In this document: piece by piece, positions 2,528-27,632 of the stretch | Layout of the letters: each line of letters starts with the position of its first letter | Position numbering within the stretch: position 1 is the first letter of the stretch | IMG/VR virus record: IMGVR_UViG_3300047299_000009 | Location: 1-28,359 of that record | Length of the DNA stretch: 28,359 bases | Reading direction: 5' to 3' (one strand) | Source of the DNA: a virus | The notes under the pieces: model-generated | Seen by the model: only the letters and a program-made list of their open reading frames with translations | Database searches by the model: none | What the model was told of the DNA's origin: nothing | Made by a program: the position numbers and the translations under genes

Positions 2528-3421
2528 ATGGATAACTCAAACCCACTGAAACAGCCAATTAAGCAGCCTGTTGCCAACCCATTGGCCCAATACTATCGTA
2601 AGCCCGGCACTTATATTGAACTGCCAAGTGGCGGACGTTTTTATAACACACCACCTAAGCTAAGTGACACAGGCGAATTGGCTGTATACCCAATGACTGC
2701 CAAAGATGAACTTGCGCTAAAGAATCCGGATGCGTTGTTAAACGGCGAAGCACTAAAACAAGTTATTGCTTCTGTGTGTCCTGACATTGCAAATGTATCA
2801 GAAATGCCTGCACCTGACATTGATGCTATCTTAGTTGCTATGCGTATGACCAGCTATGGCGATGATATGGAACTAGATGTTACTCATGGCTGCGAAGAAA
2901 GCGGTGGTAAAGCACAAAGAGTTACAGTTGGTTTAGGTAGTGTATTGTCAACATCACGTGCTATTCCTGAAAATTTAGGTACAGTAACATTAGCAAATGG
3001 CGTTGTTGTACAGCTAAAGCCTTATACATTAGAAGCACAAAGCAAACTACTTCGTGTGCAATTTAACACAATGCGCCAGCTTCAAGGGGTTGAAGCAAAC
3101 GAAAATTCTACTATTGAACAAAAAGCAGATGTTGCTAACCGTGGATACAAACAGTTAGTAGATTTGAGTACTGACATTCTTGCGGCAAGTATTACAGTAG
3201 TAAGATTGCCAGACGGAGTTGAAGTAACAAACTACGAACATATTCATGATTGGGTTAAGAATTTAGATCGCGCATCTAATGAACGTCTTGACGAAGAAAT
3301 CAAAGCATTTGGCAAGTATGGTATTACTCGTACATTAGAAGTAACTTGTGATCATTGCAAAAACAAATTTACAACCGACATGCTATTTGACCCTACAAGT
3401 TTTTTCAGCGTAGGCTCTTGA
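2528..3421 (+). CDS. 26: Gp26-like baseplate hub / tail assembly protein
   Basis: This 297-residue protein begins at an ATG eight bases after TAAGGA. The N-terminal part carries YYRKPGTYIELPSGGRFY, a pattern seen in T4-type gp26 baseplate-hub proteins. A Cys-X2-Cys pair (C274, C277) near the C-terminus and an earlier Cys (near residue 122) might bind metal. T4 gp26 is about 208 residues and is needed for hub assembly. Together with gp51 it may act as a chaperone for the tape measure rather than stay in the particle. Here the gene lies back to back with the tape-measure-like gene, which fits that role. Its last codons contain the heptamer T TTT TTC at 3400-3406, within a region where the -1 frame is also open. 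A -1 slip would replace the last four residues with 77 new ones, giving a 370-residue product. The gp26 call is from sequence pattern and position. Confidence 0.65.
   Translation: MDNSNPLKQPIKQPVANPLAQYYRKPGTYIELPSGGRFYNTPPKLSDTGELAVYPMTAKDELALKNPDALLNGEALKQVIASVCPDIANVSEMPAPDIDAILVAMRMTSYGDDMELDVTHGCEESGGKAQRVTVGLGSVLSTSRAIPENLGTVTLANGVVVQLKPYTLEAQSKLLRVQFNTMRQLQGVEANENSTIEQKADVANRGYKQLVDLSTDILAASITVVRLPDGVEVTNYEHIHDWVKNLDRASNERLDEEIKAFGKYGITRTLEVTCDHCKNKFTTDMLFDPTSFFSVGS
3400..3406 (+). promoter_or_regulatory. Candidate programmed -1 frameshift site TTTTTTC
   Basis: Read in the frame of the 2528 gene, the bases divide as T TTT TTC, a classical X XXY YYZ slippery heptamer encoding Phe292-Phe293. 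The -1 frame is open from 3391 (after a TGA at 3388-3390) to 3639. The site therefore falls inside the 31-base overlap where a slip can produce a fusion. A short hairpin (3418-3424 with 3428-3434, three-base loop, one G-U pair) begins 11 bases downstream and could stimulate slipping. Lambda and many other tailed phages use -1 frameshifting to make G/GT tail chaperones. Confidence 0.6.
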
Positions 3422-3639
3422 GTCTAGGACTCGATAGAAATAAGATTCGACGTTTTATCGAGAGCATTGAAAGTGAGTCAAGAGCCGTAATCAAAGAAGT
3501 ATCCATGTTAAGTGTTTGGGGCAACATTAGCCCACAAGAAATTTGGAACATGACTCACGAAGAAAGAACAGTACTAAGCGAAGTAATCAAAGAGCATACA
3601 GAAGTCATGTATGGCAAAAAGGGTATTGCTCGTCGTTAG
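3418..3639 (+). CDS. Small protein or -1 frameshift extension of the gp26-like gene (gp51-like position)
   Basis: As a separate gene this would start at TTG 3418, overlapping the upstream TGA by four bases, and give 73 residues with only a weak TAGG as ribosome site. As the frameshift extension it contributes 77 residues (3406-3636) after Phe293 of the upstream protein. The peptide is helical and charged, with IRRFIESIESESRAVIKEVS and then SPQEIWNMTHEERTVLSEVI. In T4 the hub-assembly gene 51 follows gene 26, and in lambda the T domain is the frameshifted part of GT, so position favours an assembly-chaperone role. No ATG lies near the expected N-terminus, which favours frameshifting or translational coupling over an independent start. 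It is followed by the gene-free region. Confidence 0.6.
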   Translation: MSLGLDRNKIRRFIESIESESRAVIKEVSMLSVWGNISPQEIWNMTHEERTVLSEVIKEHTEVMYGKKGIARR

Positions 3640-3663
3640 TATTCATTTGTAAAGTATTTTGGT

Positions 3664-3682
3664 AGAGCGAATACTTCGCTCT
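3664..3682. terminator. 8-bp hairpin after the gp26/51-like genes; possible weak terminator
   Basis: AGAGCGAA and TTCGCTCT pair perfectly around a three-base loop, 25 bases after the stop at 3639. The following TGAATTT is only a poor U-tract, so termination may be partial. The octamer CTTCGCTC recurs at about 3698-3705, giving a small repeat cluster. It could instead be the 5' boundary of the structured interval or protect the mRNA 3' end. Confidence 0.4.
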
Positions 3683-3824
3683 TGAATTTCGTATCGCTTC
3701 GCTCAACTCATTCAGATTACTTTAGTCTATATTTTTTAGATTTAACACGATTTTATATGATACTAGTGTTGTTTCTTAATACATGAACTACATAATGATT
3801 ACTTGACCTGATGCTTCAGTCACA

Positions 3825-3846
3825 CTTAGCCGTTTTACCGGCTAAG
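3825..3846. other. Perfect 8-bp stem-loop in the gene-free interval
   Basis: CTTAGCCG and CGGCTAAG pair around TTTTAC. It is flanked on both sides by similar words, ACTTGACCTGA at 3801 and ACTTGACCCGA at 3855. Neither strand has a U-run after the stem, so an intrinsic terminator is unlikely. A structural element of an RNA fits better. Confidence 0.45.
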
Positions 3847-4268
3847 ATAAAAACACTTGACCCGAAGTCCAATGCCACATTCAATTACAGCAACTTGTTA
3901 AAGTTAGGGCGGTCACGCTGTACCCTTTTACGCTTTTCTTATTATGACGCTACTGCACACACCTAATTGAAATAACGTGTGCAATATGCAGGTTGTAATA
4001 GTTCACCAGAGCCTGCTCTTTCTAGCTTTACATATACTAAACCCAGATCTTTTCAAGCAATTGATCTACGTCCTGTTAAGGATAGTGGGTGTTAGTCTCC
4101 GCTACTGCGTCGGAAGTTCCTTCCCCAGCGCAACCCTAGTGCCTGGTTTTATGGGTGCAATATAACTGGCTGCACAAGCCTATCAGTAGTAAATGAGTCT
4201 GGGGGAGTTAGCGGTTTACGCAGGAAGTATAAGGATTTATCTGTTGTACAGATGAGTTAACCGTGTAG

Positions 4269-4694
4269 TTAAAGTTTATCTTTAATATGATTTTTATGTA
4301 CTTTTAAGTTGATAATGCCGTTGTAATAGTCTGCTGATTCAAGTACTTTTCTATCAAATTGTTCTTTTGCTTCTATGTAAGAGCATACAGCTTTTGCATT
4401 GCAATAGTGCAGTATCTCTCTTTTAAATTTATCTGGGCCTAGTTGAGCCAAGTCTGCTAGTAGTTCTACAGATGAGCCATAATAAGTTTGCCAATCGGAA
4501 TCGATCTTACTTTTAATCTTCTTCCGCTTTTTTGTACCGTTCTTTAGTTTAACAACCTTGTATGTGGTTTTAGAAAACTTTGATAGCTTCTTCCCCACAT
4601 ACTTTCGGTTGTTAGTCAGGTTTGTTATAAGGTACACAAACCCAACGCAGTCATCAGGTAATGCGTCTACAACTTGATCGTTGTAAAACCACAT
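4269..4694 (-). CDS. GIY-YIG family endonuclease
   Basis: This 141-residue protein has the GIY-YIG nuclease signature in variant form: GFVYLITN (residues 18-25) and KYVGKK (31-36), followed by a Lys-rich insert (about 46-64) and SDWQTYYGS. A conserved Glu in SYIEAKEQF (E108) is the likely metal-binding residue. Similar short GIY-YIG proteins occur widely in T4-type phages as free-standing nucleases, either homing enzymes or of unknown role. It is the last gene of the minus operon; its ATG overlaps the stop of the upstream gene by one base (TAATG), indicating coupled translation. No intron is evident around it. The fold call is fairly firm, but the target and biological role are unknown. Confidence 0.75.
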   Translation of the reverse strand: MWFYNDQVVDALPDDCVGFVYLITNLTNNRKYVGKKLSKFSKTTYKVVKLKNGTKKRKKIKSKIDSDWQTYYGSSVELLADLAQLGPDKFKREILHYCNAKAVCSYIEAKEQFDRKVLESADYYNGIINLKVHKNHIKDKL

Positions 4695-4879
4695 TACTTG
4701 GCTGCTAACGCTTCTTTCTCCGCTGTAATCTCTTTACGGCGTTCTTTGATAGCTTTAGACATTTCTTGTAGTGCCTTGCGAGCACGAGCGGCAGCGGCCT
4801 TAACGCCTTTGCCTGCAAATTTTTCGTTTTCAGCTTTGTATGCTTCAAACTGTTCTAATAGAATTTCGTGATTTGTCAT
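4694..4879 (-). CDS. Small basic helical protein, histone-like pattern
   Basis: This 61-residue protein is almost entirely charged helix. It has an acidic N-terminal third and a Lys/Arg/Ala-rich remainder, KFAGKGVKAAAARARKALQ and then KAIKERRKEITAEKE. The KAAxxRARKAL pattern recalls small phage proteins sometimes annotated as histone-like, and nucleic-acid binding is plausible. It lies 8 bases after gp46 and is coupled to the GIY-YIG gene. Its function is unknown; the compact operon and the absence of another frame support that it is real. Confidence 0.6.
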   Translation of the reverse strand: MTNHEILLEQFEAYKAENEKFAGKGVKAAAARARKALQEMSKAIKERRKEITAEKEALAAK

Positions 4880-4887
4880 AATGTTCC

Positions 4888-6663
4888 TTAATTTTCAATG
4901 ACTTGCGTATCTGCTTCAAGCATAGTGAATCCATTTTCCTTAACTACCATAAGCACATTATTAACACGGCTTGCTAGTTCATCTCTGTGAGAGATTAAGA
5001 AAATGTTACGATTCATCTCACGACCCATTGACTTTAGAACCGACATGGAGTGTTCGATACCCACACTATCCATTCCAGAATCAACAAGCTCGTCAATAAA
5101 CATCAAGTTCATTGGCTCAGTGAAGCTTTCATACACATCTCTAAAACTCCAGCTCAATGCTAGAATTAAACGATTTCGTTCCCCTCGACTTAGGTTATCA
5201 AAGTCAAAACTTTGTCCTAGTTGGCTAATGTCTACTTCCAAATCACTTTTAAATGTAACTTGGTGCGGTAGTTGTAACTTATCCAAATAGTAACTTAGTC
5301 TATGATTTAGGTAAGCCAAGTTCTGCTCAATAATACGCTTTCGTACAAATGAGTCTTTGCTTGTAAGCAACTTTAACAAAAACTCTTGGTGCTCAAGTAG
5401 CTTACTTACTCTGTTAATTTCATCCCAGCTAACCAGAGCTAGTGCAGTATTACGCATAGCTTCAATTTGTTCTTGATAAGGATCTTCTTCTTGGACCTTT
5501 GCATCAAGTTGCTTGCGAATGTTTTCTAAGTTGTTTTTGTGAGCGGCAGCATCGGCTACGTCCTGGTATTTGGTACGTGGACGATCACCTAATGTGCCAA
5601 TGGTTCGAACAGCCATATCAGCTTGAGCCAAATAACCATGTTCTTCGCGAAGCGCACTAACAGTTAGATCCACAGCGGCCTGTGCATCTGTTGCCATTTG
5701 GTCATGCTTCTCATCATGCACATCCTGTCCACAAGATGGACATTGGTGAGCTTTGATAGATTCTAAACTCTTTTGTGCAACTGCTAAAGCATCTTGCAAC
5801 TTCTTAACGTTGCTTTGGCGAGTAGCTAATTCTTTATTGGCTAACTTAAGGCGACTTTCGTTATCCTTGTAAAGAGCTACAGCACGATGAGCCTCAAGCT
5901 CAGCTTCGATGTCTGTATTTTCTAATTCTGTAATAGCCGCTTCAAAAGCAGCCACGTCAGTTTCTTTCTTGCTAGTCCAAACACGACTGCGGCGTTCTAA
6001 GTCATCAATGCTGGTTTGAACACGAGCATTGCTTTCTTGCAAGGCTTTAATGCGTGACTCTTCATCCTTAATATCATCCTTGCTTTTCTTAATGAACTCG
6101 CGAAGGATCTCAGCTTTCTCACTTAGTTGAGTAATGCCCAGCAGTTCTTCAATGATGTCACGTTGCTCACCACTTTTCAAACTCAAGAACGGTTGAGTGT
6201 AAGTGTTAAGAGCCACTAAGTGCTTAAACATTTCTGCACTCATGCCAACAACTTTTTCAATTGCTTCTTGAGTTACACGGTTCTCACCGGCACCTTCGTC
6301 TGTACCTGATTCGTTTACTTCATGATCGTCAACCAAGAAGCGTAACACGTTAGGCTTGCGTCCACGTTCGATTGTGTACTTGGCGCCATTCTTTTCAAAC
6401 TCAACCGTGACCAGCATGCCTTTGGTGTTAGTTTTGTTAATCAAGTTTTCTTTGCGAATATTAGTAAGAGCATTGCCATAGATAGCATATGATAGTGCAT
6501 TAACCATAGTAGTCTTACCCACACCGTTGCGAGCACCATCACCACCTAGGTCTAAGTTATTACCAAGTACAAGTGTTAGTCCGTGTTGATTCATGCGAAG
6601 GGCTTGTGTTACATTGCCCACACTCATGAAGTTTTTAATTGTTAAATTGTTAAACTTGATCAA
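4888..6663 (-). CDS. 46: Gp46 recombination endonuclease subunit (Rad50/SbcC family ATPase)
   Basis: The 591-residue protein is an ABC-type SMC-like ATPase. Walker A is GARNGVGKTT (43-52), and the Q-loop region lies in NTYTQPFLSLKSGEQ (153-167). A long coiled coil (about 185-460) is interrupted by a zinc-hook CPSC (308-311). The signature is LSRGERNR (491-498), Walker B is LMFIDELVDSG (520-530), and the H-loop is SHR (558-560). Length is close to T4 gp46 (560 residues). With gp47 it forms the Mre11-Rad50-type nuclease that processes double-strand ends for recombination-dependent replication and host DNA breakdown. Its ATG overlaps the gp47 stop by four bases, as expected for a coupled pair. 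All key motifs are intact. Confidence 0.96.
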   Translation of the reverse strand: MIKFNNLTIKNFMSVGNVTQALRMNQHGLTLVLGNNLDLGGDGARNGVGKTTMVNALSYAIYGNALTNIRKENLINKTNTKGMLVTVEFEKNGAKYTIERGRKPNVLRFLVDDHEVNESGTDEGAGENRVTQEAIEKVVGMSAEMFKHLVALNTYTQPFLSLKSGEQRDIIEELLGITQLSEKAEILREFIKKSKDDIKDEESRIKALQESNARVQTSIDDLERRSRVWTSKKETDVAAFEAAITELENTDIEAELEAHRAVALYKDNESRLKLANKELATRQSNVKKLQDALAVAQKSLESIKAHQCPSCGQDVHDEKHDQMATDAQAAVDLTVSALREEHGYLAQADMAVRTIGTLGDRPRTKYQDVADAAAHKNNLENIRKQLDAKVQEEDPYQEQIEAMRNTALALVSWDEINRVSKLLEHQEFLLKLLTSKDSFVRKRIIEQNLAYLNHRLSYYLDKLQLPHQVTFKSDLEVDISQLGQSFDFDNLSRGERNRLILALSWSFRDVYESFTEPMNLMFIDELVDSGMDSVGIEHSMSVLKSMGREMNRNIFLISHRDELASRVNNVLMVVKENGFTMLEADTQVIEN

Positions 6664-8481: not shown

Positions 8482-9485
8482 GCTTCCTCGCTATCCTCTA
8501 AAATAATTTCTGATACTTCAATATCAGCATCAATGTCAACGTCGGCCTCTAAGCCAACATTAACTGGTAATTCTTCACCTGGATCAACAGCAGCCGCTGG
8601 ATCCTTAAGAGCATTGTATCTTTCGATACCTTCAATGTGTGCTTGCTGACTTTCCATTTGACGAGTCCATGATGGCATTTGACCGGAATCTTGCAACAAG
8701 TCGTCGCGGATATCACGTTGACGTTTTTCTACGTTAAGAACACGGGTAAATGAGTTTGTAACTGCGGCAGTATAGTAAGCAAATGGATTTTGTGATTTAC
8801 CTTCATCAAATTGAAGCCCAATTTGAGTAAGCTGAATTAAGGCCTGCCCACGCATTTCGTCTACATACGAATAGCCACGCCAGTTACTTCGTAAGCTATA
8901 GCGTTCACATAGCTTTAAGAACATTGCACCTAAACGATTTGTAATTTGTCCATGGTCAACACAAAACTCTCCAGTTTGTAAATCACCCTTCCAATGACTA
9001 CGAAGCACCTCACGCCATGTACCATCTTCATTTTGCATAAAATGTTTAAATGGTGGAAAGTTTACTTTGCTCCTGTGGTCAGCAATACTTTTAGGATTAT
9101 TTTTTCGTCCTGGTTCGAGCGGGATATGCTCAAATGTCATCATACGAACAACAAGATCAGTTACTGGAATCTTTTTAGGATTAACTTCAAATTGATCTTG
9201 TTTGGGTTTTGTACTTGCTTTGCCCTTAGCAGCCTCCCATTCGGCAATAGCGGCTTGGTATGCTTGCTGTTGTAGTCGTGTGGCACGAGCTTCACGTGCT
9301 AAGTTGATAGCACCTTCGGGACAGGCTTTGGTTTTACGATTATGAAAACTTTTTAATTCGGTTACAATGTAATCATACTGCTCAACATCTCGGCTTTCTT
9401 TCCAGCAATAGCTCATCTTACTTGCATGGATTGCGGCTAAAATATCTTTATTTTTTAGGTAAATGGTTGTTGTTTTCTCTGACAC
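8478..9485 (-). CDS. 55: Gp55-like late-transcription sigma factor, long form
   Basis: Residues about 180-265 match the T4-type gp55 core: ITNRLGAMFLKL, NWRGYSYVDEMRGQAL, and KSQNPFAYYTAAVTNSF followed by VEKRQRDIRDDLL. This corresponds to sigma region 2, which binds the beta' coiled coil and the TATAAATA-type -10. The protein is 335 residues, against 185 for T4 gp55. The extra length is an N-terminal section of about 100 residues of unknown role, a middle motif (VTDLVVRMMTFEHIP, 108-122) and a strongly acidic tail (about 310-335). In T4 the gp55 C-terminus contacts the gp45 sliding clamp; the acidic tail here may do similar work, which is an inference. It starts at GTG 9485 after AAGGAGA and is first in the operon, behind a sigma70-like promoter. 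Early synthesis would switch on the TAAATA promoters seen elsewhere in the window. Confidence 0.88.
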   Translation of the reverse strand: MSEKTTTIYLKNKDILAAIHASKMSYCWKESRDVEQYDYIVTELKSFHNRKTKACPEGAINLAREARATRLQQQAYQAAIAEWEAAKGKASTKPKQDQFEVNPKKIPVTDLVVRMMTFEHIPLEPGRKNNPKSIADHRSKVNFPPFKHFMQNEDGTWREVLRSHWKGDLQTGEFCVDHGQITNRLGAMFLKLCERYSLRSNWRGYSYVDEMRGQALIQLTQIGLQFDEGKSQNPFAYYTAAVTNSFTRVLNVEKRQRDIRDDLLQDSGQMPSWTRQMESQQAHIEGIERYNALKDPAAAVDPGEELPVNVGLEADVDIDADIEVSEIILEDSEEA

Positions 9486-9504
9486 TAGTAGTCTCCTTGT
9501 ATCA

Positions 9505-9534
9505 AGTATAGCATAAAGTTGTAAGCGTTGTCAA
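9505..9534 (-). promoter_or_regulatory. Sigma70-type promoter for the gp55-to-nuclease operon
   Basis: On the minus strand TTGACA (9529-9534) and TATACT (9505-9510) are separated by 18 bases. This is a perfect -35 and a good -10 for the host housekeeping sigma factor. Transcription would begin near 9498, with AAGGAGA immediately after and GTG at 9485. All minus-strand genes down to 4269 follow with overlaps or gaps of under 12 bases. Confidence 0.8.
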
Positions 9535-9560
9535 CGGTAATATACCTACTTTATAGAAAC

Positions 9561-9571
9561 GGTAAATAGGT
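9561..9571 (+). promoter_or_regulatory. Late promoter GGTAAATAGGT upstream of the baseplate operon
   Basis: This contains the extended motif GGTAAATAGGTAT, shared with 15399 and with 2500-2511 on the minus strand. The TAAATA core fits a gp55-dependent late promoter. Predicted initiation is near 9574, downstream of the ATG at 9572. This places the functional start of the next gene at 9587, with GGAG at 9574-9577 as its ribosome site. Confidence 0.65.
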
Positions 9572-18929: not shown

Positions 18930-21900
18930 ATGGCAAAAGATCCAAAAAAGTTAAATCCTGAAAACCCATATAGCAAGACATATCCAGGGCAGGATTTAAA
19001 CACAGGCGTTTCACCTAAAACGACTGACTTACTACCTACGATTTTTAGAACTGAAACTAATAAGAAAGTTCTAAGTGCGGTAATGGAAGACTTGTTTCAA
19101 CCAAGTTCCATCGAAACATTAAACTATGCCGTTGGTCGTAATCGTACAAAGTTTACTGGCTTAGATTATTTGCCACATCCCACTGCTCGCAGACAATTAG
19201 AAACTGGCTTAGTACTGTTTAATGATGATAAGGTATCAGTATTAACAGCCGACGACATTGCAACAGCATGGAATCTAAATGATAGAACACGCGAAACAGT
19301 AGAACCAATTAGCATTTTAGATTTGCCAATTGACCCAGACAAGTTTTTAAACTGGGCAAACTACTATTGGATCGAAGAACGTATGCCAGTGGTGTTCTTA
19401 ACCAGCGGCAACACTGACTTAAATGTACAAGCTGACATTGTTGGTAAGAAATATTACACATCACCTGTGCAGCCAAACGGTCGTAGTTTAGAATTTAAAA
19501 ATGGCATGCGGGTAGTATTTCACCAACGCCCAGGTTTAACTGATATTAGTGGTAATTTGGATTTAGACTTAGTTACAGACGGAACTGATCAATTACACCT
19601 AGACTATGAATTTGTCAACTACAATCGAGGTTTAATTGGCGTTTCAGTTGACGGTGTTATATTAACACAAGGCGTTGACTATTATATCACTGGTAACCAT
19701 ATTATATGGCTGACTGAAGTTCCTGCACTAAAAGCAGTACATGTCCACGCACCAAACTTTTACATTACATTAGATGAAGAACTTAGATTGCGTTCGTGGC
19801 TAGTGACAGGTGTTGGCACCGAAGAAGGTATTCAGCTACTAGGGCTAGCATCGCAGTTTACAAACACTGTTTACAGTAAAATATCAAATGCATTGTGGGA
19901 CCAATCGGCAGTGCCTTGGGACCGTGTTGAATGGGACGGTTTCATCCCCGGTATTAACCCTAAGGAATACATCTTACAAGAACCAGGTGCAAAAAATAGA
20001 AATGCACACAGCCGAACCAACTGTTGGTTCCATAAGTCTACTATTCAAACAGCAGTTGATTTTTTAGGGATTGCATTTAGCGACATTGCAAATGGCAATA
20101 GTCAAGCCTTACGTCCTATTGTTGAATTTGAAAACAGCCTTGAATTATACAATCACGGTACACGCTATCGCGCCTGGCCAACATTCCTGGTTAACGAATT
20201 AAACATTGGCGTTCCAGACTTTATTAACTTGCCTCTAGTAGATAAAAATACAACAGTACTAAATGCAAGATACATGTCTTTGTTGTCTAAATTAGATAGA
20301 CCAGTTGACATCATTGTACAAACACAAATTGGCGCTAACTTTAAATTGGCGCTAAACGCATCGTCTATTCCGCAAGATGAGCTTATTAAAATCTTGTCTA
20401 ACCTTGACAAGGACAATGCCGCCGGTCGAACACCAAAGTATGCAGTTTACAAAATAAGCGGTAACGGTATTACTTGGATTAAAAACCCACCAGCGTCAAA
20501 CTGGACAATTACCTACAGAATTTCTGGCGTCTTATTGTCTGCTTTGCGTATTCTGTGGTTAGCTAAAGATTCAAATGTTAATACAATTTTAAACATTAAA
20601 CACAACGGCGTAGAGACAACTGGAGTTTCAAAAGAAGTAGCAAATGATGGCGACGCAGTAGTAATCAATGTAACGTCATCAGCTGACCCGCATTACTTAA
20701 AAGAGTATCACTGGAAGAATGGCATTGCTGTTCCAGCAACGTTCCGTACTACTGCAATTCAACAACCAGTGTTTGAAGTGTACAGTCGCGACGGCGTTAA
20801 GCTAAGTTCAAACACAAGAACAAAGCCGTCGGTAGTTAACAGCACAATTATCAAGATTAAATCTGGCGCATATTTTGATGACGAGTCAGGTTATAACATT
20901 GACTTCTTACCAACTCAATTTACACAGCTGACTGCCGACAATACAGCGGTTAATAGCATGTACAATATTTTGTTTGAACACACGCTTCAAACAACAGCAT
21001 TGTATATTGACAGCACTGGTACTCAACGGCCAGTACAGGGCCCATACTCATTCCGTAGATTCAATGGCGGCGAAACAGTGTCTGAACTAAGCAATGGCTA
21101 TCGTCGTGCATGGTTCAAGTTGAAAAGCTGGGCACTTCGCTCACAAAACATTGACGGTCTGACAACTATTCAGTTAGATAGTTCGATGTGGCCAGATTAC
21201 AATTGGGCAGTTAAGATTGCCAATGGCGTTGGTACAGTATTGCACACAGATGACTTTAAAACAGTTGTTGATAATGTAGCAGTTGCCGCACGTGGACGCA
21301 CAGTTTCATTTAAAGTATATCACAACGGCTTACAGACTGTAGCAACAGTAAGTGGTCAGGGCTTCGAAGCGTTTGATGTGCCAGTAGTAGACGGTGTGGT
21401 TTCATTTGTTGTTCCAGCAACAGCAATTGATACTCTAACAGTTTCAGTTGGCTTTATCAGCTTTACTGCTCGACTAATTGAATTTAAAGATGATCCACGA
21501 TTTGTAAAAATTAAGTTGAACGGTCTTCCAGTAGACTACAACATCGATTCAACTGCTTATACAGTTACGTTAAATGGCACAGGCGTTGTTGAAATTCAGC
21601 ACCAAGGTAATAACATTGATAGAGATCACTTAACTGCTATTCCAGGCATTGATTATAATCCAGAGCAATTTGAAAACTTTGGCGAGATTAGTGTAGCACG
21701 AGTTGTCAAAGGCTTGTCAAAGAACATTGCAGTAAACACAGCAGGCAAGCGTGAATGGATTGATAGTCCAAAGTTTAAAACACTTGACGGCATTTATATG
21801 GCCGACAATAGTGCTATGCGTTCTTCATGGGCAAACTTTGCTTTACAACCAGGACTGCAAGATGTTGTAGTTGCACGTTCAATGAGCGCCTGGAGATGGT

Positions 21901-24900
21901 ACCGTAAGTTTATTTCCAAGTTAGAAGAAAGCAATATTGTTTACAACATTGGCGAGTATGGTATTAACAAAACGCTTGATCGTATATTGGGCGAAATGCT
22001 TCTTGGTGTAAATTATAGCTCAGTTGATGCAATATCAGGCATGGCACTTACTCGCGAAGGTATGCAATTGAATACATTAACGGCCAATGGTAGCAATACA
22101 TTTGCTATTGGTTCTGTTGATTTGTTTACTCTACCATATGCCGCAGATCACGTTTACGTGTATGTAAACGACAATTTACAATTACGCGGCGCCGACTATA
22201 CAATCAGCGGCCAACAAGTAGTGTTTAATACAGCACCGGCAATTGATAGTATCATTGAGATTTACTTTGCTGGACAAACTGAAGTGTATTCTGGAATCCC
22301 AGCAAGCCCTGCTAAACTTGGCCTTGGCGGCCTATATGTGCCACAAGTGGTAACAGAAACTTGGGGAACCAATAGCAAGACGTTTATTCAACGACACGAT
22401 GGCTCGCGCATTACTGCATACGTAGATCCAGAAACAGGAGAAGCCGATGAGAGCTATCTACTAAATGCAATTATTTTAGAATTAGAAAAACGAATTTACA
22501 ATGCTTGTATCAACACTGTTGGCGAAGCAAATAGACAGTACGCATTTAGAAACTATTCAGCAGAAGAAATAACTGAGTCACAGTCTCGTTCACAGTTGGA
22601 GTGGTACTCTATCAACGGCATCGATTACAGAAGCCGTAACGACTTTGATGCCAACGATGCGTGGACATGGAATTACGGTGGTGCAAGTTGGAGAAAGTTA
22701 TACTTAGATTTCTACGGAACTTATCGCTTGCATCAATCTCCATGGGAAGCATTAGGTTACGACAACAAACCAACATGGTGGGACACTCATTACTCGTGGA
22801 CTGATGCAACCAAACGTCAAGCACTTGAACTGGCCTTGTACTTTGGTATTTTAAATGAACCAGGTGCCGCGGCATATACTGATCCAAAATTTGCACACCC
22901 GCATGCAACTTACCCAGTTGATGCGTACGGTAATTTACTAAGCCCGTTTGATGCTGGTATTGCTTCTCCAACGGCCGATGAAGCACAACAGCCATGGGAA
23001 ATTGGTGCAATGGGTCCAGCTGAAACAGCATGGCGCCGAAGCATTACCGGCACTTGGTCTAATGTGCTTCGTGCATTAGATTGCTACGACTTAGCAAACG
23101 AGTTCTTTGATAGTGCAATTAACCCGTTTATACAAACAGTACATAATAACAGCACAGCGCCTAAGGGCACAGGCAGCATTGCACCTGACCAATTCCTATA
23201 CGCAAGACCTTTAATGGGCATTGGTGCAGTACTATTCGAAGGCTACCGCGAGTTTAACCTACTAGGAGAGTCACCATTGGAAGATTTGTTGTCCATCGGC
23301 ACTAAGTTAGAGTTCAGTGTTGGTGGCTTCACTGATGGTGTTATTACATTGAAAATGCCGTACGCTAAATTCCAAGACAATGAATATGTACCTGACAATG
23401 ACTTTGGTTTAACATTGAGCCACGGTATTCCAAAAGAACAGTTACGTTACACTTCTGTGCGAGTTGAAAAGGATGATGTTGGATTCCGTGTGTACGGCTT
23501 TGATCCAAAATATAGATTCTTTAAAGTATTAACACCAACAGCAAATGCGCTGTCAACAGGATATCCTACAACTCGTCGTCAGCTAGTTACTAGTTACGGA
23601 ACTTTTACCGAGTATCTAAGCTGGAACACAACGCCAGTGGCAGTGCCTTACGGAGCATACGTTGCAAATAAACAAGACTTGATTACATTATTAATGGGTC
23701 TTGGCGAGTATCAACAACAACAAGGTTTAATTTTAGACAGCATCAACAGTCGCGGCACCATTACAGACTGGAAACAAGCGGCAATTGATGCTATTGCCTG
23801 GAGCGAAGAACAATGGGGCAAAGAACACTTCTGTATCGTGGGTGTTGCAACAACTGATGGCTTAAAAATTCATCACACAATGGGCGCACTAAGCAGACTT
23901 GATGCTGACCTTGGACGTACTGGCAAGGTATTGTATGCCAATGGACGTTCGGCTACTGCCGCAGAGTTGTTAATTACTCGAGACTTTGAGCCAAGTACTG
24001 ATAAAATCACTCCACTAACCAACGATCAAATTGTATTTGTAAATTTTGAAACACAATATTACGATCACGTTTTCTTTATTAGCAACAAAACCAAGTTTGG
24101 TGATTTGATTGCTGACTTACAAACAGATAACAGATTGCAAGATCTAACAATTGCTGGCCGCAGAACTTACAACTGGACAGGCCGTCCTTCTGCACTTGGC
24201 GTATTACCACAGCAGTACAGCACCATGCCTGGTTTCGATACGCTTGTAAATGATATTGTTGCAAGTCACATGCCCGAACGTGTTGCATTTGATACACTTA
24301 AAACTGACATTGCTCGTGGAAACGTAGTACCTTCAAAGAAAAGTGTTATTGCTGACATTGTACAAGACAGTACAAGTGCGTATCTGTACCGTCAAGGCTT
24401 ACAAAGTGCTGTTGGTACAAACTTAGCCATTGATGCATTGTTTAGAAACAGAAATATTGACATTCCGGGTAACGAACAAGATGTAGGTGTTAATGAACAG
24501 TGGATGTTTAATACAGGCGAGTTTGGCAATTTGTCAAACAAGAAAACTTGGGAAATTGAACTTCGTAAAAAAGATCTAACAAGTAATCGTCAAATTGTAA
24601 GATTCCGCGACGATGCACTTGGGGTTACAGACTTACGAAGCGACAACATTATTGACATTGTTGGCAAAGCTGATCCACGTTGGGTTTCTCGTCCAAGCGA
24701 TTACTTGTTTAAAACAATTAACAGAGATGCCATTGACAAGAACTATAGCAAGTCACAAAATTGGTTGCCAAGTGCCGGTCTAGCCGACGTTGTTACAACT
24801 GACGTAGAAATTATGCGTCTAAGCGAACTTACATTTGATAAGTTGCTTAACGTAGAAGATTCTGCAATACTATTTGAAACACAGTCATTTAGCAGATACA

Positions 24901-27632
24901 ACGATTACAATACAGGCGACTTTGTTTGGCACCAAGGCAAACTATATCGCGCCACAGTTCGTATTGTTGGATCAGCAGTTAGTGCGTTTGACAATACCCA
25001 ATGGGACGAAGTACTGATTACTGGCACAATGTTGCCGTCAATTTGGATTAGCGATTACATTTTTACAGAGCCACAAGGCTATGGCTGGAACGTTCTGCAG
25101 GCATTTGCTCCTGCGTATATTGAAGAAATTTGTCCAAATGCAATCAACACTGGCTTAAACGAAAGTAAGGCTTCGTTTGCTAGCCCACACAGATTGGCAA
25201 AAGGCGACTCGTTTATTGTTGCTGGGACAAATGACGGAAACTATAACGGAGTTCATCAAGTTAAAGAAGTAGTCGACGACTATAATGTATTGATTCAGGC
25301 CCGTAGTACCAGCAATGAAGTTGTGTATAACGCAGTTGGATTTAAATTAAGCTCTGTTAAATTTACAACAGATGAGGAATTCTTAGCATCTACTCTATCA
25401 TTTAGTGCAGGTATGACAGCGTATGTTGATTATGGTGATATTGAAGGTAGCTACAAGATTTACACCTTTACTGGCAATGGTCAAGCCAATGCACAGCAGT
25501 ATAACATTGAAAACTACAGCAACACGATGATTGACAGTGGATCAATTTATCAAGTGCAGTTGTTTGATTACGACACTGAAGATTTGATTCAAACACTTGA
25601 AGTGTTTGATCCATACAAAGGCTTGACCATCGATGACGTTGCTCAATATATTGACTTTAAACAGTTGCCTGATCCTGCCAGTTATAATGTTAACGAGCTA
25701 GGCGTAGTAGACGAATACAATTCTTCACCTTGGGGTGCTGAACAAGTTGGCAAGCTATGGTGGGACCTTGACAAGGTACGTTATATTGAATATGAACAGT
25801 CAGGTAATTTACAATACCGTGCCAACCATTGGGGCGAACGCTTTGCTGACAGCGAAGTTGCCATCTACGAGTGGGTAGGTAGTACTGAACTACCATCTAC
25901 AGACGTTGCACCTGATGCGTACTTAGACACTAGCGGTAATGCTGACGGTCAAATTAGATACAGCGAAATTGTTACTACTGATTCAGATTCTGGCGCAAGC
26001 ACAACAACATATTATTACTGGAAGCGTAGCCCTTCAATAGTACCAGCAGGCGGCAACAGAGCATATTCTGCGGCAGCAATTGAGTCGGTGCTAAACAATC
26101 CGGATGTAAATGGCGTTGCTTGGCTAGCACCTATTGATACTAATGCATTTATTATTGCTAACATTTCTGGAGTGTTTGGTAACAAAGATCGAGTTATCTT
26201 GCGTATTGAACAAAACTTAAATCCAGAGCAGGTACATAACAACAGTGTATTAGTAACAGAAAACGTAGATGTGATTGATGACTTCTTGTATCAACGCTTG
26301 TCGTCAAGTATTGTTGGCCGTGACAACTACAGAGAAGCATACAAACTAAACGAGTATGTTGTTGGTCAACAATATCGCAAAGGCGATTACGTGTACATCA
26401 AGAACAACGGCATCGACGTTGCTACTAGCACATACGGCGGCAGCGATTATCCAATTCTTCAAAATCTCGATGATACTCGCTACGACATTAACACTGTTCG
26501 TCGTGCAACATCGGCAGATCATAAGATTTATGTAACTATCAATGACTTTGTTGCAAGTGGACTTGCTAAGGATATCAAGCAGAGATTTATTATCAAGAGC
26601 GCCGCAGGTGCATTGATTAAGGATCCTTACGAAAACACAGAAGGATACTATGCAGTAGTTAATACTCGTCGTAAAGTACCTGATGCTAGCTTACACCCAC
26701 TACGCCGTTACGGTAATGAGTATGCACCAAGACCACAATCTTGGTTCAAAGATGTTATTGCGGCACGTAGAACTCTTATTACAGCAGCCAACGACTACTT
26801 GCTAAACATTGACACAATTAGCAAACCAGACTGGGACCGTTACTTGATAAAGTATCAGCCTTTGAACGGATCATACGAAAAGGATCTAACGCAGTATTGG
26901 GATTATGTTGATTACATTGTACCCGGCTACACAGTTGGCAACGAACAAGTACGAATCCGTGCTGAAGAGATTGGCTCACTTGACAACACAGTAACAAACT
27001 TTGGTATCGCTGATGCATATGGTAATGTCATTGAAGCATATACAAAGTCTGGCAACAACTTAACTCTAATGTATCGTAAAAATGGTACAATCCAATTCTC
27101 AAATTCAATTTGGGATGGCAGCTTAAACGATGCATGGGACAAGTTATCCTGGGATAGAACATACTGGGACGAAGATATCAGCGAAGTAGTTGAGAGCATC
27201 CTACGTGCCCTTCGCAAGAATATCTTTGTAGGCGAGGACATTGGCTACTTTAACAAGTTATTCTTTGCGTTAGTTAAGGAAAGTTTGTCACAGATTTCAA
27301 ACGCAGATTGGGTAGTAAAAACAACATATCTTGACGTATTCCAAACCAGCGAGCGCGAATTAGAAAAGGTGGGTACATACTACAATAAGAAAGATAAGTT
27401 AATTATCAAGTACATTGACGAAGTTAAACCCTTCCACAGTAAAATTGTGGAGGCAAATAAGCTAAACAATGCCCAGCAAGATATTGCAGTTGCTATCGGG
27501 GAATCAGTTTCATTAACTTGGACTACTCGTACCGTGATAACTGATGAAAACGAAAACCCAATTACTACCGAAGATGGCAGAAAGCTATCACCGGTCACAG
27601 AAGTGGTCGTACAGGAACTGCAAGAGGAATAA
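18930..27632 (+). CDS. 7: Giant gp7-like baseplate wedge / structural protein
   Basis: This is one uninterrupted frame of 2900 residues, nearly three times T4 gp7 (1032). Its place directly after gp6 and its general pattern indicate the gp7 wedge slot. Visible features are a conserved N-terminus (YPGQDLNTGVSPKTTDLLPT), Trp/Asp-rich stretches near 322-341 and 2728-2750, and YRLHQSPWEALGYDNKPTWW near 1265-1285, a motif I associate with very large structural proteins of marine T4-type phages. Small beta units of the type V.VNG..L..G.DYTISG..I.F recur near residues 235, 860 and 1073. No signal peptide or enzymatic motif is evident. An AAGGC/AGAG sequence precedes the ATG. It could be gp7 fused to further wedge or fibre modules; the exact domain limits cannot be set by eye. 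Confidence 0.75.
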   Translation: MAKDPKKLNPENPYSKTYPGQDLNTGVSPKTTDLLPTIFRTETNKKVLSAVMEDLFQPSSIETLNYAVGRNRTKFTGLDYLPHPTARRQLETGLVLFNDDKVSVLTADDIATAWNLNDRTRETVEPISILDLPIDPDKFLNWANYYWIEERMPVVFLTSGNTDLNVQADIVGKKYYTSPVQPNGRSLEFKNGMRVVFHQRPGLTDISGNLDLDLVTDGTDQLHLDYEFVNYNRGLIGVSVDGVILTQGVDYYITGNHIIWLTEVPALKAVHVHAPNFYITLDEELRLRSWLVTGVGTEEGIQLLGLASQFTNTVYSKISNALWDQSAVPWDRVEWDGFIPGINPKEYILQEPGAKNRNAHSRTNCWFHKSTIQTAVDFLGIAFSDIANGNSQALRPIVEFENSLELYNHGTRYRAWPTFLVNELNIGVPDFINLPLVDKNTTVLNARYMSLLSKLDRPVDIIVQTQIGANFKLALNASSIPQDELIKILSNLDKDNAAGRTPKYAVYKISGNGITWIKNPPASNWTITYRISGVLLSALRILWLAKDSNVNTILNIKHNGVETTGVSKEVANDGDAVVINVTSSADPHYLKEYHWKNGIAVPATFRTTAIQQPVFEVYSRDGVKLSSNTRTKPSVVNSTIIKIKSGAYFDDESGYNIDFLPTQFTQLTADNTAVNSMYNILFEHTLQTTALYIDSTGTQRPVQGPYSFRRFNGGETVSELSNGYRRAWFKLKSWALRSQNIDGLTTIQLDSSMWPDYNWAVKIANGVGTVLHTDDFKTVVDNVAVAARGRTVSFKVYHNGLQTVATVSGQGFEAFDVPVVDGVVSFVVPATAIDTLTVSVGFISFTARLIEFKDDPRFVKIKLNGLPVDYNIDSTAYTVTLNGTGVVEIQHQGNNIDRDHLTAIPGIDYNPEQFENFGEISVARVVKGLSKNIAVNTAGKREWIDSPKFKTLDGIYMADNSAMRSSWANFALQPGLQDVVVARSMSAWRWYRKFISKLEESNIVYNIGEYGINKTLDRILGEMLLGVNYSSVDAISGMALTREGMQLNTLTANGSNTFAIGSVDLFTLPYAADHVYVYVNDNLQLRGADYTISGQQVVFNTAPAIDSIIEIYFAGQTEVYSGIPASPAKLGLGGLYVPQVVTETWGTNSKTFIQRHDGSRITAYVDPETGEADESYLLNAIILELEKRIYNACINTVGEANRQYAFRNYSAEEITESQSRSQLEWYSINGIDYRSRNDFDANDAWTWNYGGASWRKLYLDFYGTYRLHQSPWEALGYDNKPTWWDTHYSWTDATKRQALELALYFGILNEPGAAAYTDPKFAHPHATYPVDAYGNLLSPFDAGIASPTADEAQQPWEIGAMGPAETAWRRSITGTWSNVLRALDCYDLANEFFDSAINPFIQTVHNNSTAPKGTGSIAPDQFLYARPLMGIGAVLFEGYREFNLLGESPLEDLLSIGTKLEFSVGGFTDGVITLKMPYAKFQDNEYVPDNDFGLTLSHGIPKEQLRYTSVRVEKDDVGFRVYGFDPKYRFFKVLTPTANALSTGYPTTRRQLVTSYGTFTEYLSWNTTPVAVPYGAYVANKQDLITLLMGLGEYQQQQGLILDSINSRGTITDWKQAAIDAIAWSEEQWGKEHFCIVGVATTDGLKIHHTMGALSRLDADLGRTGKVLYANGRSATAAELLITRDFEPSTDKITPLTNDQIVFVNFETQYYDHVFFISNKTKFGDLIADLQTDNRLQDLTIAGRRTYNWTGRPSALGVLPQQYSTMPGFDTLVNDIVASHMPERVAFDTLKTDIARGNVVPSKKSVIADIVQDSTSAYLYRQGLQSAVGTNLAIDALFRNRNIDIPGNEQDVGVNEQWMFNTGEFGNLSNKKTWEIELRKKDLTSNRQIVRFRDDALGVTDLRSDNIIDIVGKADPRWVSRPSDYLFKTINRDAIDKNYSKSQNWLPSAGLADVVTTDVEIMRLSELTFDKLLNVEDSAILFETQSFSRYNDYNTGDFVWHQGKLYRATVRIVGSAVSAFDNTQWDEVLITGTMLPSIWISDYIFTEPQGYGWNVLQAFAPAYIEEICPNAINTGLNESKASFASPHRLAKGDSFIVAGTNDGNYNGVHQVKEVVDDYNVLIQARSTSNEVVYNAVGFKLSSVKFTTDEEFLASTLSFSAGMTAYVDYGDIEGSYKIYTFTGNGQANAQQYNIENYSNTMIDSGSIYQVQLFDYDTEDLIQTLEVFDPYKGLTIDDVAQYIDFKQLPDPASYNVNELGVVDEYNSSPWGAEQVGKLWWDLDKVRYIEYEQSGNLQYRANHWGERFADSEVAIYEWVGSTELPSTDVAPDAYLDTSGNADGQIRYSEIVTTDSDSGASTTTYYYWKRSPSIVPAGGNRAYSAAAIESVLNNPDVNGVAWLAPIDTNAFIIANISGVFGNKDRVILRIEQNLNPEQVHNNSVLVTENVDVIDDFLYQRLSSSIVGRDNYREAYKLNEYVVGQQYRKGDYVYIKNNGIDVATSTYGGSDYPILQNLDDTRYDINTVRRATSADHKIYVTINDFVASGLAKDIKQRFIIKSAAGALIKDPYENTEGYYAVVNTRRKVPDASLHPLRRYGNEYAPRPQSWFKDVIAARRTLITAANDYLLNIDTISKPDWDRYLIKYQPLNGSYEKDLTQYWDYVDYIVPGYTVGNEQVRIRAEEIGSLDNTVTNFGIADAYGNVIEAYTKSGNNLTLMYRKNGTIQFSNSIWDGSLNDAWDKLSWDRTYWDEDISEVVESILRALRKNIFVGEDIGYFNKLFFALVKESLSQISNADWVVKTTYLDVFQTSERELEKVGTYYNKKDKLIIKYIDEVKPFHSKIVEANKLNNAQQDIAVAIGESVSLTWTTRTVITDENENPITTEDGRKLSPVTEVVVQELQEE

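Follow-up and report, generated by a model that had tools for sequence, protein, structure and literature searches.

GOLLD and ROOL RNAs form homo-oligomeric nanocages, and GOLLD is often encoded near tRNA genes. An adjacent endonuclease gene is characteristic of HEARO/OMEGA RNAs and of homing-endonuclease introns. Passages of PMC12286853 describe GOLLD as large, ornate, and phage borne, with conserved and variable parts and an unknown function; many GOLLD RNAs exceed 800 nt. ROOL, for which 659 nt is given there as an example, has several pseudoknots and occurs in phages and prophages, and the methods of that article state that Rfam includes GOLLD, ROOL, and OLE profiles. The Polynucleobacter-1 motif of Weinberg et al., 2010 (PMC2864571), is cataloged as Rfam RF01718. 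In Table 1 of that paper, it is entered as probably RNA and probably cis-regulatory, as ambiguous with respect to riboswitch function, and under the taxa Burkholderiales and fresh water/estuary; a passage of the same paper states that cis-regulation was usually assumed for motifs commonly found upstream of genes.

Here we describe a viral locus in which the RF01718 motif is, judged by sequence comparison, just the 5' quarter of a larger RNA. The window, meaning the whole stretch of DNA analyzed, is a virus record of 28,359 bases. Alignments of its relatives show that minus-strand positions 4193-3664 encode a conserved RNA structure of ~530 nt with three predicted pseudoknots (PK1 to PK3). It has three parts: the RF01718 domain at the 5' end, a universal core with pseudoknots, and a hairpin-containing 3' domain.

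The gap, its neighbors, and the collection of relatives

The 630-base gap between the end of a plus-strand gene at 3639 and the end of a minus-strand gene at 4269 holds no credible protein gene. Its sole open reading frame (ORF) of at least 60 amino acids (aa), a 62-aa plus-strand frame with a GTG start (3977-4165), remains uninterrupted in 3 of 33 relatives, and the GC content of the gap reaches 50 to 51% at 4050-4199 versus 26 to 43% in other 100-base intervals of 3400-4700. An initial annotation had described a gene-free gap (3640-4268) with a GC-richer core, and both descriptions were borne out. The many perfect nested stems that it offered as evidence proved weak: folding of the gap sequence alone gave a z score of -1.18 on the RNA (minus) strand, with 15 of 100 shuffles equally good, and -2.31 on the opposite strand, with 1 of 100 equally good. 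It is the comparative evidence, not single-sequence stems, that makes the case for the RNA. The annotation was also wrong in finding no match to any RNA family, since the minus strand matches RF01718 over the entire model (E = 1.7e-19), and the score of 94.9 bits clears the gathering score of 37 bits. Its description of the RNA as undescribed thus stands for about three-quarters of the length and fails for the 5' 141 nt, published in 2010 as Polynucleobacter-1.

This was the sole match of Rfam release 15 in the whole window. None of the other models (introns and the rest of the 4227 families) matched, and in the gap this held for E values up to 5; the core (4021-3876) had no Rfam match, and ARAGORN found no tmRNA. 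The RF01718 model spans 141 of the ~530 nt, without the PK3 5' strand and without the entire core, and it was published from Burkholderiales and fresh water, whereas the loci here are viral contigs. Among 16 diverse loci tested, 10 had a full RF01718 match, and 6 (L076, L111, L115, L129, L155, and L159) had the core with no RF01718 match above threshold. Two exact patterns, of a kind that misses diverged copies, had no match in a genome collection of 84,980 species. A survey of the open-licence PMC literature, a scope outside which most subscription journals fall, found no report of the full RNA, its core, PK1 to PK3, the jumbo-phage range, or the multicopy genomes.

Genes on the minus strand down to 4269 encode SbcD-like and SbcC-like exonuclease subunits, an Hc1-like 61-aa protein, and a SegE-type GIY-YIG endonuclease. 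The 61-aa histone H1-like ORF (Hc1, PF07432; 4694-4879) lies between gp46 and SegE and has relatives in many loci. Positions 18930-27632 of the window form one 2900-aa ORF. The convergent 73-aa ORF had no Pfam or PHROG match. Sigma-70-like sites at the gap of the window numbered 2 versus 2.4 in shuffles, and upstream T4 late promoters were not enriched, either exact (TATAAATA; 2 of 56 loci versus 2% of shuffles) or with one mismatch (17 of 56 loci versus 30%). No terminator-like site was found at the RNA, and its last hairpin is not followed by a U-run.

Where loci had enough DNA, conservation extended ~370 nt beyond the Rfam model, across the rest of the gap as far as the convergent gene. Four loci (L014, L018, L032, and L038) have unlike upstream DNA, and their similarity starts at about CACTACTG/TACTACTG, at window position 4193 or just inside it; we therefore placed the 5' boundary near 4193.

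Relatives were collected in successive scans of viral contigs. The first, with a conserved 15-mer, returned 54 stretches, of which 22 had the RNA (23 including the window's own locus) and those without ACTATCC downstream were dropped. The second returned 54 stretches, 37 of them retained by reading; the third returned 102, from which 63 new loci (L099-L161) were inspected and 8 dropped as chance (L108, L114, L125, L128, L130, L153, L154, and L161). R1, a covariance model of the core that leaves out PK1 and PK2, was built from 29 rows, 1 of them the window's own sequence. It matched all 27 loci newly obtained in a fourth scan, none of which was a training row and each of which had been fetched by a 21-base core pattern. 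Altogether, 118 viral loci, defined by the pattern, carry the core, 57 of them at <96% identity, and 57 representatives pass R1. Alignment A2 comprises 58 rows aligned to R1 (the 57 representatives and the second copy of contig G021), 28 of them R1 training rows. Alignment A3 comprises 33 full-length rows chosen for recognizable ends; those of L071, L073, L115, and L145 were trimmed by hand, which left L071 without the 5' strand. A blastn search of INPHARED with the gap and the cores of L076, L159, and L117, a method that misses diverged copies, gave no relevant match, and three Streptomyces records (30 bases, E = 0.5) were taken as chance. We took the same view of a weak R1 match at 9440-9562 on the plus strand of the window (13.6 bits, E = 0.058).

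Features of the RNA and its neighbors in the window (positions of the window) and of two stretches in cultured phages (positions of the records named)
Feature	Position	Strand	Remarks
Whole RNA, ~530 nt	3664..4193	minus	Conservation bounds: CUACUG strand (5'), last conserved hairpin (3')
5' domain, Rfam RF01718 (Polynucleobacter-1)	4036..4180	minus	94.9 bits, model positions 1-141 of 141
PK3 5' strand, CUACUG	4184..4189	minus	A3; upstream of the Rfam model
PK3 3' strand, CAGUAG	4102..4107	minus	A3; loop of UCCG/CGGA hairpin
Universal core (model R1), 146 nt	3876..4021	minus	155.1 bits, E = 2.1e-36 in the window (a training row)
Long core hairpin	3951..3986	minus	3986-3977 with 3960-3951; A2 helices 2-4
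PK2 loop strand, UUCAAUUA	3964..3971	minus	In loop of long core hairpin
PK2 downstream strand, UAAUUGAA	3880..3887	minus	A2 helix 5, after next hairpin
PK1 strand, GUCAU	3944..3948	minus	A2 helix 6
PK1 loop strand, GUGAC	3912..3916	minus	Within AGGG/CCCU hairpin; A2 helices 6 and 7
CUUAGCCG/CGGCUAAG hairpin	3825..3846	minus	A3 helix 14; 97.7% paired, two-sided changes in 2 of 8 pairs
3' hairpin with tandem-GA internal loop	3683..3714	minus	GA/GA or GA/GAA
Last hairpin, GAGCGAAGUAUUCGCUC	3664..3682	minus	A3 helix 16; 90.8% paired, two-sided changes in 5 of 8 pairs
SegE-like GIY-YIG endonuclease, upstream neighbor	4269..4694	minus	PF19835, E = 5.2e-32
gp46/SbcC-like exonuclease subunit	4888..6663	minus	phrog_77, E = 2.6e-102
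73-aa ORF, convergent	3418..3639	plus	Many loci have a relative of it next to the RNA
T4-type baseplate hub gene, convergent	2528..3421	plus	phrog_150, E = 7.9e-21; PF12322, E = 9.2e-14
Phosso gap	L162 15411-16424		Sinorhizobium phage Phosso PV764938.1 229759-230772
Paride element	L164 15150-16420		OR805295.1 234211-235481; parts at 171222-171465 and 117413-118075

Covariation in the core and in full-length relatives

In A2, 91.7% of 2065 cells were in standard pairs and 31 of 36 pairs had changes on both sides, counts that lean towards the nested stems, which are those in the R1 model. The covariation score was 0.626, versus 0.207 (SD, 0.009) in shuffles, a test inflated by related rows, and 0.044 to 0.093 when the registers were slid by 1 to 3 columns. 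The covarying pairs that the initial annotation had proposed to look for in an alignment of relatives were thus found, and its large structured phage RNA in the gap is supported by conservation, covariation, and the three pseudoknots. All 10 pairs of the long core hairpin changed on both sides, with 84.5%, 90.4%, and 87.8% of cells paired in helices 2, 3, and 4, respectively; its last pair was unpaired in 27 of 58 rows. Helix 8 was weak (78.4% paired, one pair open in 37 of 58 rows). Pairs in A2 included 114 G-U cells versus 30 A-C cells, and the two pseudoknots outside the R1 model, PK1 and PK2, had 62 versus 17; because G-U and A-C would swap on the other strand, this favors an RNA on the minus strand, with which the Rfam match agrees.

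PK2 had 91.0% of its cells paired, and all 8 pairs changed on both sides, the end pair being open in 22 of 58 rows. With the columns fixed, at least 6 of the 8 positions pair in 54 of 58 rows (the exceptions are L207, L208, L206, and L202); with the register free and G-U allowed, the best run reaches at least 6 pairs in all 58, that of L199 in another register. The pairing score of rows with their own partner strands was 17.4, versus 11.2 (SD, 0.40; maximum, 12.8 of 10,000) with rows permuted. The 35 "distinct helices" of this permutation test are a count of strings in which length variants are counted apart; examples are UUCAAUUA/UAAUUGAA in the window, CUCAUAUCC/GGAUAUGAG in L155, UUUGGUU/AACCAAA in L117, and UCUACAC/GUGUAGA in L076. 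For PK1, 96.1% of cells were paired, and 3 of 5 pairs changed on both sides. The free-register test was weak for PK1 (own, 11.55; permuted, 10.99 [SD, 0.16; maximum, 11.60]; for 31 distinct rows, own, 11.35, and permuted, 10.91 [SD, 0.26]) since little of the strand varies, and we used the fixed-register count as evidence.

Across the full-length rows of A3, 93.0% of 2892 cells over 92 pairs were paired and 52 pairs changed on both sides. There were 412 cells changed on both sides versus 133.4 in shuffles, and the covariation score was 0.363, versus 0.144 (SD, 0.005) when shuffled and at most 0.078 when slid; of the five measures, the one for further pair types was not above shuffles (282 of 500). 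The stems of the RF01718 domain were drawn from the present alignment and are close to, and not copied from, those of Rfam. Its helices 2, 3, and 5 were 84.7%, 85.5%, and 88.0% paired, and helices 4 and 7 were 100% paired, and each of the five includes pairs with two-sided changes; helix 6 was 94.9% paired and so nearly invariant as to be uninformative.

PK3 pairs in all 32 rows that include it, in four versions (CUACUG/CAGUAG, CUACCG/CGGUAG, CUACGG/CCGUAG, and CUAUCG/CGAUAG), counts that are biased since most 5' ends were found by a pattern favoring CUACUG/CUACCG. L073 and L115, which were taken without the 5' pattern, still pair. Four of its six pairs never vary and two change on both sides; its own score was 15.16, versus 13.82 (SD, 0.17) when permuted. 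In 15 of 33 rows, UA replaces one CG pair of the UCCG/CGGA hairpin around the 3' strand. Farther downstream, the hairpin with a tandem-GA internal loop was found in 33 of 55 loci versus 45 of 1100 block shuffles and was absent from 22 of 55 by the same test, which had been widened after the fact from GA/GAA to include GA/GA. The GA/GAA form was rejected as a universal feature, with just 26 of 55 loci (41 of 550 shuffles).

Genomic setting, copy number, and cultured relatives

The neighbors of 58 loci were surveyed by tblastn with proteins of the window and its relatives, within 5 kb. In 46 of them, the RNA has a nuclease gene upstream on its own strand: a SegE-like gene adjoins the RNA in 38 and lies further off in L208, and another nuclease occupies the slot in 7 (PDDEXK_15 by Pfam for the two proteins used as queries, the rest by tblastn). 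L014 and L145 are cut short upstream and have the baseplate gene. That convergent hub gene is downstream in 40 of 48 loci, the other 8 having at most 685 bases there. Ten of the 58 loci, some with short flanks, show no canonical neighbors within the available flank (L076, L155, L159, L191, L193, L195, L197, L206, L207, and L216), and a same-strand gene follows the RNA in L155, L076, and L159. The RNA is not bound to any single gene: in most loci it points at the 3' end of the convergent baseplate gene, and in others it precedes a gene of the PolyA_pol type or of another type. The gene with a PolyA_pol head domain (tRNA nucleotidyltransferase-like) follows the RNA in two distant phages, L076 and L155 (matches at L177 2204-2551 and L184 812-1228 in the L076/L155 flanks, the L177 match barely at the cutoff).

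Thirty-five viral records, chosen because they were hit in the scans, were searched whole with R1 (G017 and G018 twice). Credible matches were found in 31; the other four (G004, G020, G022, and G030) were chance pattern hits, and a 14.4-bit R1 fragment in G020 was likewise taken as chance. All eight records of >200 kb carry the RNA (G013, G018, G019, G021, G023, G033, G034, and G039), two of them more than once. Contig G013 (317,722 bases) has four diverged copies (E = 2.9e-17 to 2.4e-9), and contig G021 (235,561 bases) has two, the second at E = 2.1e-5; such copy numbers fit a trans-acting gene.

The gp46-like protein is closest to those of the jumbo phages Phosso and Atu_ph07 and the Paride/PA5oct group (44.6 to 48.5% identity). 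R1 had no credible match in Phosso, Atu_ph07, or Paride; matches in Atu_ph07 (E = 0.127, inside an annotated gene) and Paride (E = 0.178, inside a long open frame) were taken as chance, and unfiltered searches of the syntenic Paride and Phosso gaps reached at most 6.7 bits. Annotated genes fill the equivalent slot in Atu_ph07. Phosso has ~1.0 kb without an annotated gene there, between Holliday junction resolvase and RNase HI genes, with no Rfam match and no other INPHARED record matching by blastn. A Holliday junction resolvase is near gp46 in both Paride and Phosso, and SegE GIY-YIG or PDDEXK_15 is in the slot elsewhere; SegE may be a recombination enzyme here and not a homing endonuclease.

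Paride has ~1.3 kb at the gp46/baseplate slot, with tiny hypothetical ORFs only. The stretch recurs at ≥99% in 11 records, all Pseudomonas phages and two of them versions of PA5oct, and parts of it recur at two other Paride sites (83% identity over ~130 bases), where tiny hypothetical ORFs are annotated. All three copies lie behind a TTGACA-17-TAnnnT site, an observation made with no control; one TTGACA site scored 12/12, and sites overall were no more frequent than in shuffles. By the widened test, two of the three copies have a long tandem-GA hairpin near the 3' end (0 of 300 block shuffles each), and Phosso has none. With the test restricted to GA/GAA, the three copies and Phosso yielded a single weak match, that of Paride copy 1, equaled in 92 of 200 shuffles. 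R1 reached at best 10.9 bits on the Paride copies, sequence and model searches found no homology, and a scan of viral contigs for a motif common to Paride and Phosso found nothing. We treat the three-copy Paride/PA5oct element as different from the RNA described here and as a lead only, with no claim of homology; it is a candidate for a large RNA family of its own.

Possible roles and comparison with known RNAs

The best explanation overall, to which we assign a probability of roughly 70%, is a stand-alone, trans-acting RNA of large T4-like phages that is GOLLD/ROOL-like and in neither family. Compensatory change at such depth means that the fold is selected as RNA. Trans action is suggested by the different neighbor genes, by an orientation in the window that points away from any gene the RNA could lead, and by the multiple copies in two genomes. 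Speaking against the reading are the failure to find a promoter or a terminator-like site, the 2010 entry as probably cis-regulatory, the absence of tRNA genes from the window and the 12 scanned loci, and the unremarkable folding of the sequence by itself. The RNA gene would stand alone in these phages and act in trans during infection, and it would not be a leader controlling the next gene. Its product may be a rigid multi-pseudoknot scaffold like GOLLD and ROOL, and we would guess that this scaffold most likely binds a phage or host machine (the ribosome or another RNA-binding complex) or its own copies.

A cis-acting role, either as a 3' untranslated region structure of the gp47-gp46-SegE operon or, following the 2010 view, as a leader of a codirectional next gene, is possible and rather unlikely. 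It has behind it the table of PMC2864571, where cis-regulation is entered as "y" (probably), the same-strand nuclease gene upstream in 46 of the 58 loci, and the three loci in which a same-strand gene follows. In the window, however, no same-strand gene comes after the RNA before the convergent gene, the following genes differ between classes, four diverged copies sit at different places of one genome, and ~530 nt with three pseudoknots would be large for a leader. The position between convergent units, conserved in most loci, might instead suggest an insulator or terminator; in T4, gp46 is early and the baseplate late. We consider this improbable given that no terminator-like site was seen, that 10 of 58 loci (some on short flanks) lack the canonical neighbors, and that termination would not need covarying internal pseudoknots.

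It is more doubtful still that the RNA is a mobile element or intron moved by a GIY-YIG SegE homing endonuclease. The SegE-like gene is directly upstream in 38 loci and further off in one, but seven loci have the RNA without SegE and with another nuclease in its slot, the position is stable across classes, and no intron family in Rfam matches; a homing role for SegE was set aside on account of those seven loci. A decayed protein gene, named by the initial annotation as what would speak against an RNA, or chance noncoding DNA would be in keeping with single-sequence folding barely better than shuffles, but either is in effect refuted by the covariation, with 93.0% of cells paired and the excess of changes on both sides, and the internal ORF is open in just 3 of 33 relatives.

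The results place an orphan 141-nt motif of Burkholderiales and fresh water at the 5' end of a large phage RNA, of which it makes up a quarter, and what was listed as a probable cis-regulator would, on the preferred reading of a stand-alone RNA, probably act in trans. The RNA offers a target for RNA sequencing, cryo-electron microscopy, and knockout, perhaps in jumbo phages of Pseudomonas that are in culture, should their element prove related. More speculatively, and with considerable doubt, the window could hold the first known representative of a superfamily of large multi-pseudoknot RNAs across jumbo T4-like phages, sometimes in several diverged copies, that form RNA-only particles like GOLLD and ROOL as an independent third invention, with the Paride/PA5oct element as a distant cousin.

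Compared with known systems, the RNA shares with HEARO/OMEGA RNAs and homing-endonuclease introns an adjacent endonuclease gene in many loci but has no Rfam match to them, and its nuclease family changes between relatives. The initial annotation had drawn a comparison with GOLLD and ROOL without claiming homology, a caution that the Rfam covariance search, matching neither, upheld; judged by that search, the RNA belongs to neither family. Like GOLLD, it is large, ornate, and phage borne, with conserved and variable parts, and like ROOL, it combines a similar size with several pseudoknots in a phage setting. It differs from both in lacking tRNA genes (none in the window or in 12 loci scanned) and from GOLLD in its length of ~530 nt. 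In size, pseudoknots, and phage setting, the predicted RNA resembles those of PMC12286853. We rate it as a new class among the large ornate RNAs of phages, one that incorporates a single cataloged domain, RF01718. It would stand beside GOLLD and ROOL, whose role is open, as a class of its own that combines strong covariation with a mapped pseudoknot topology and multicopy genomes.
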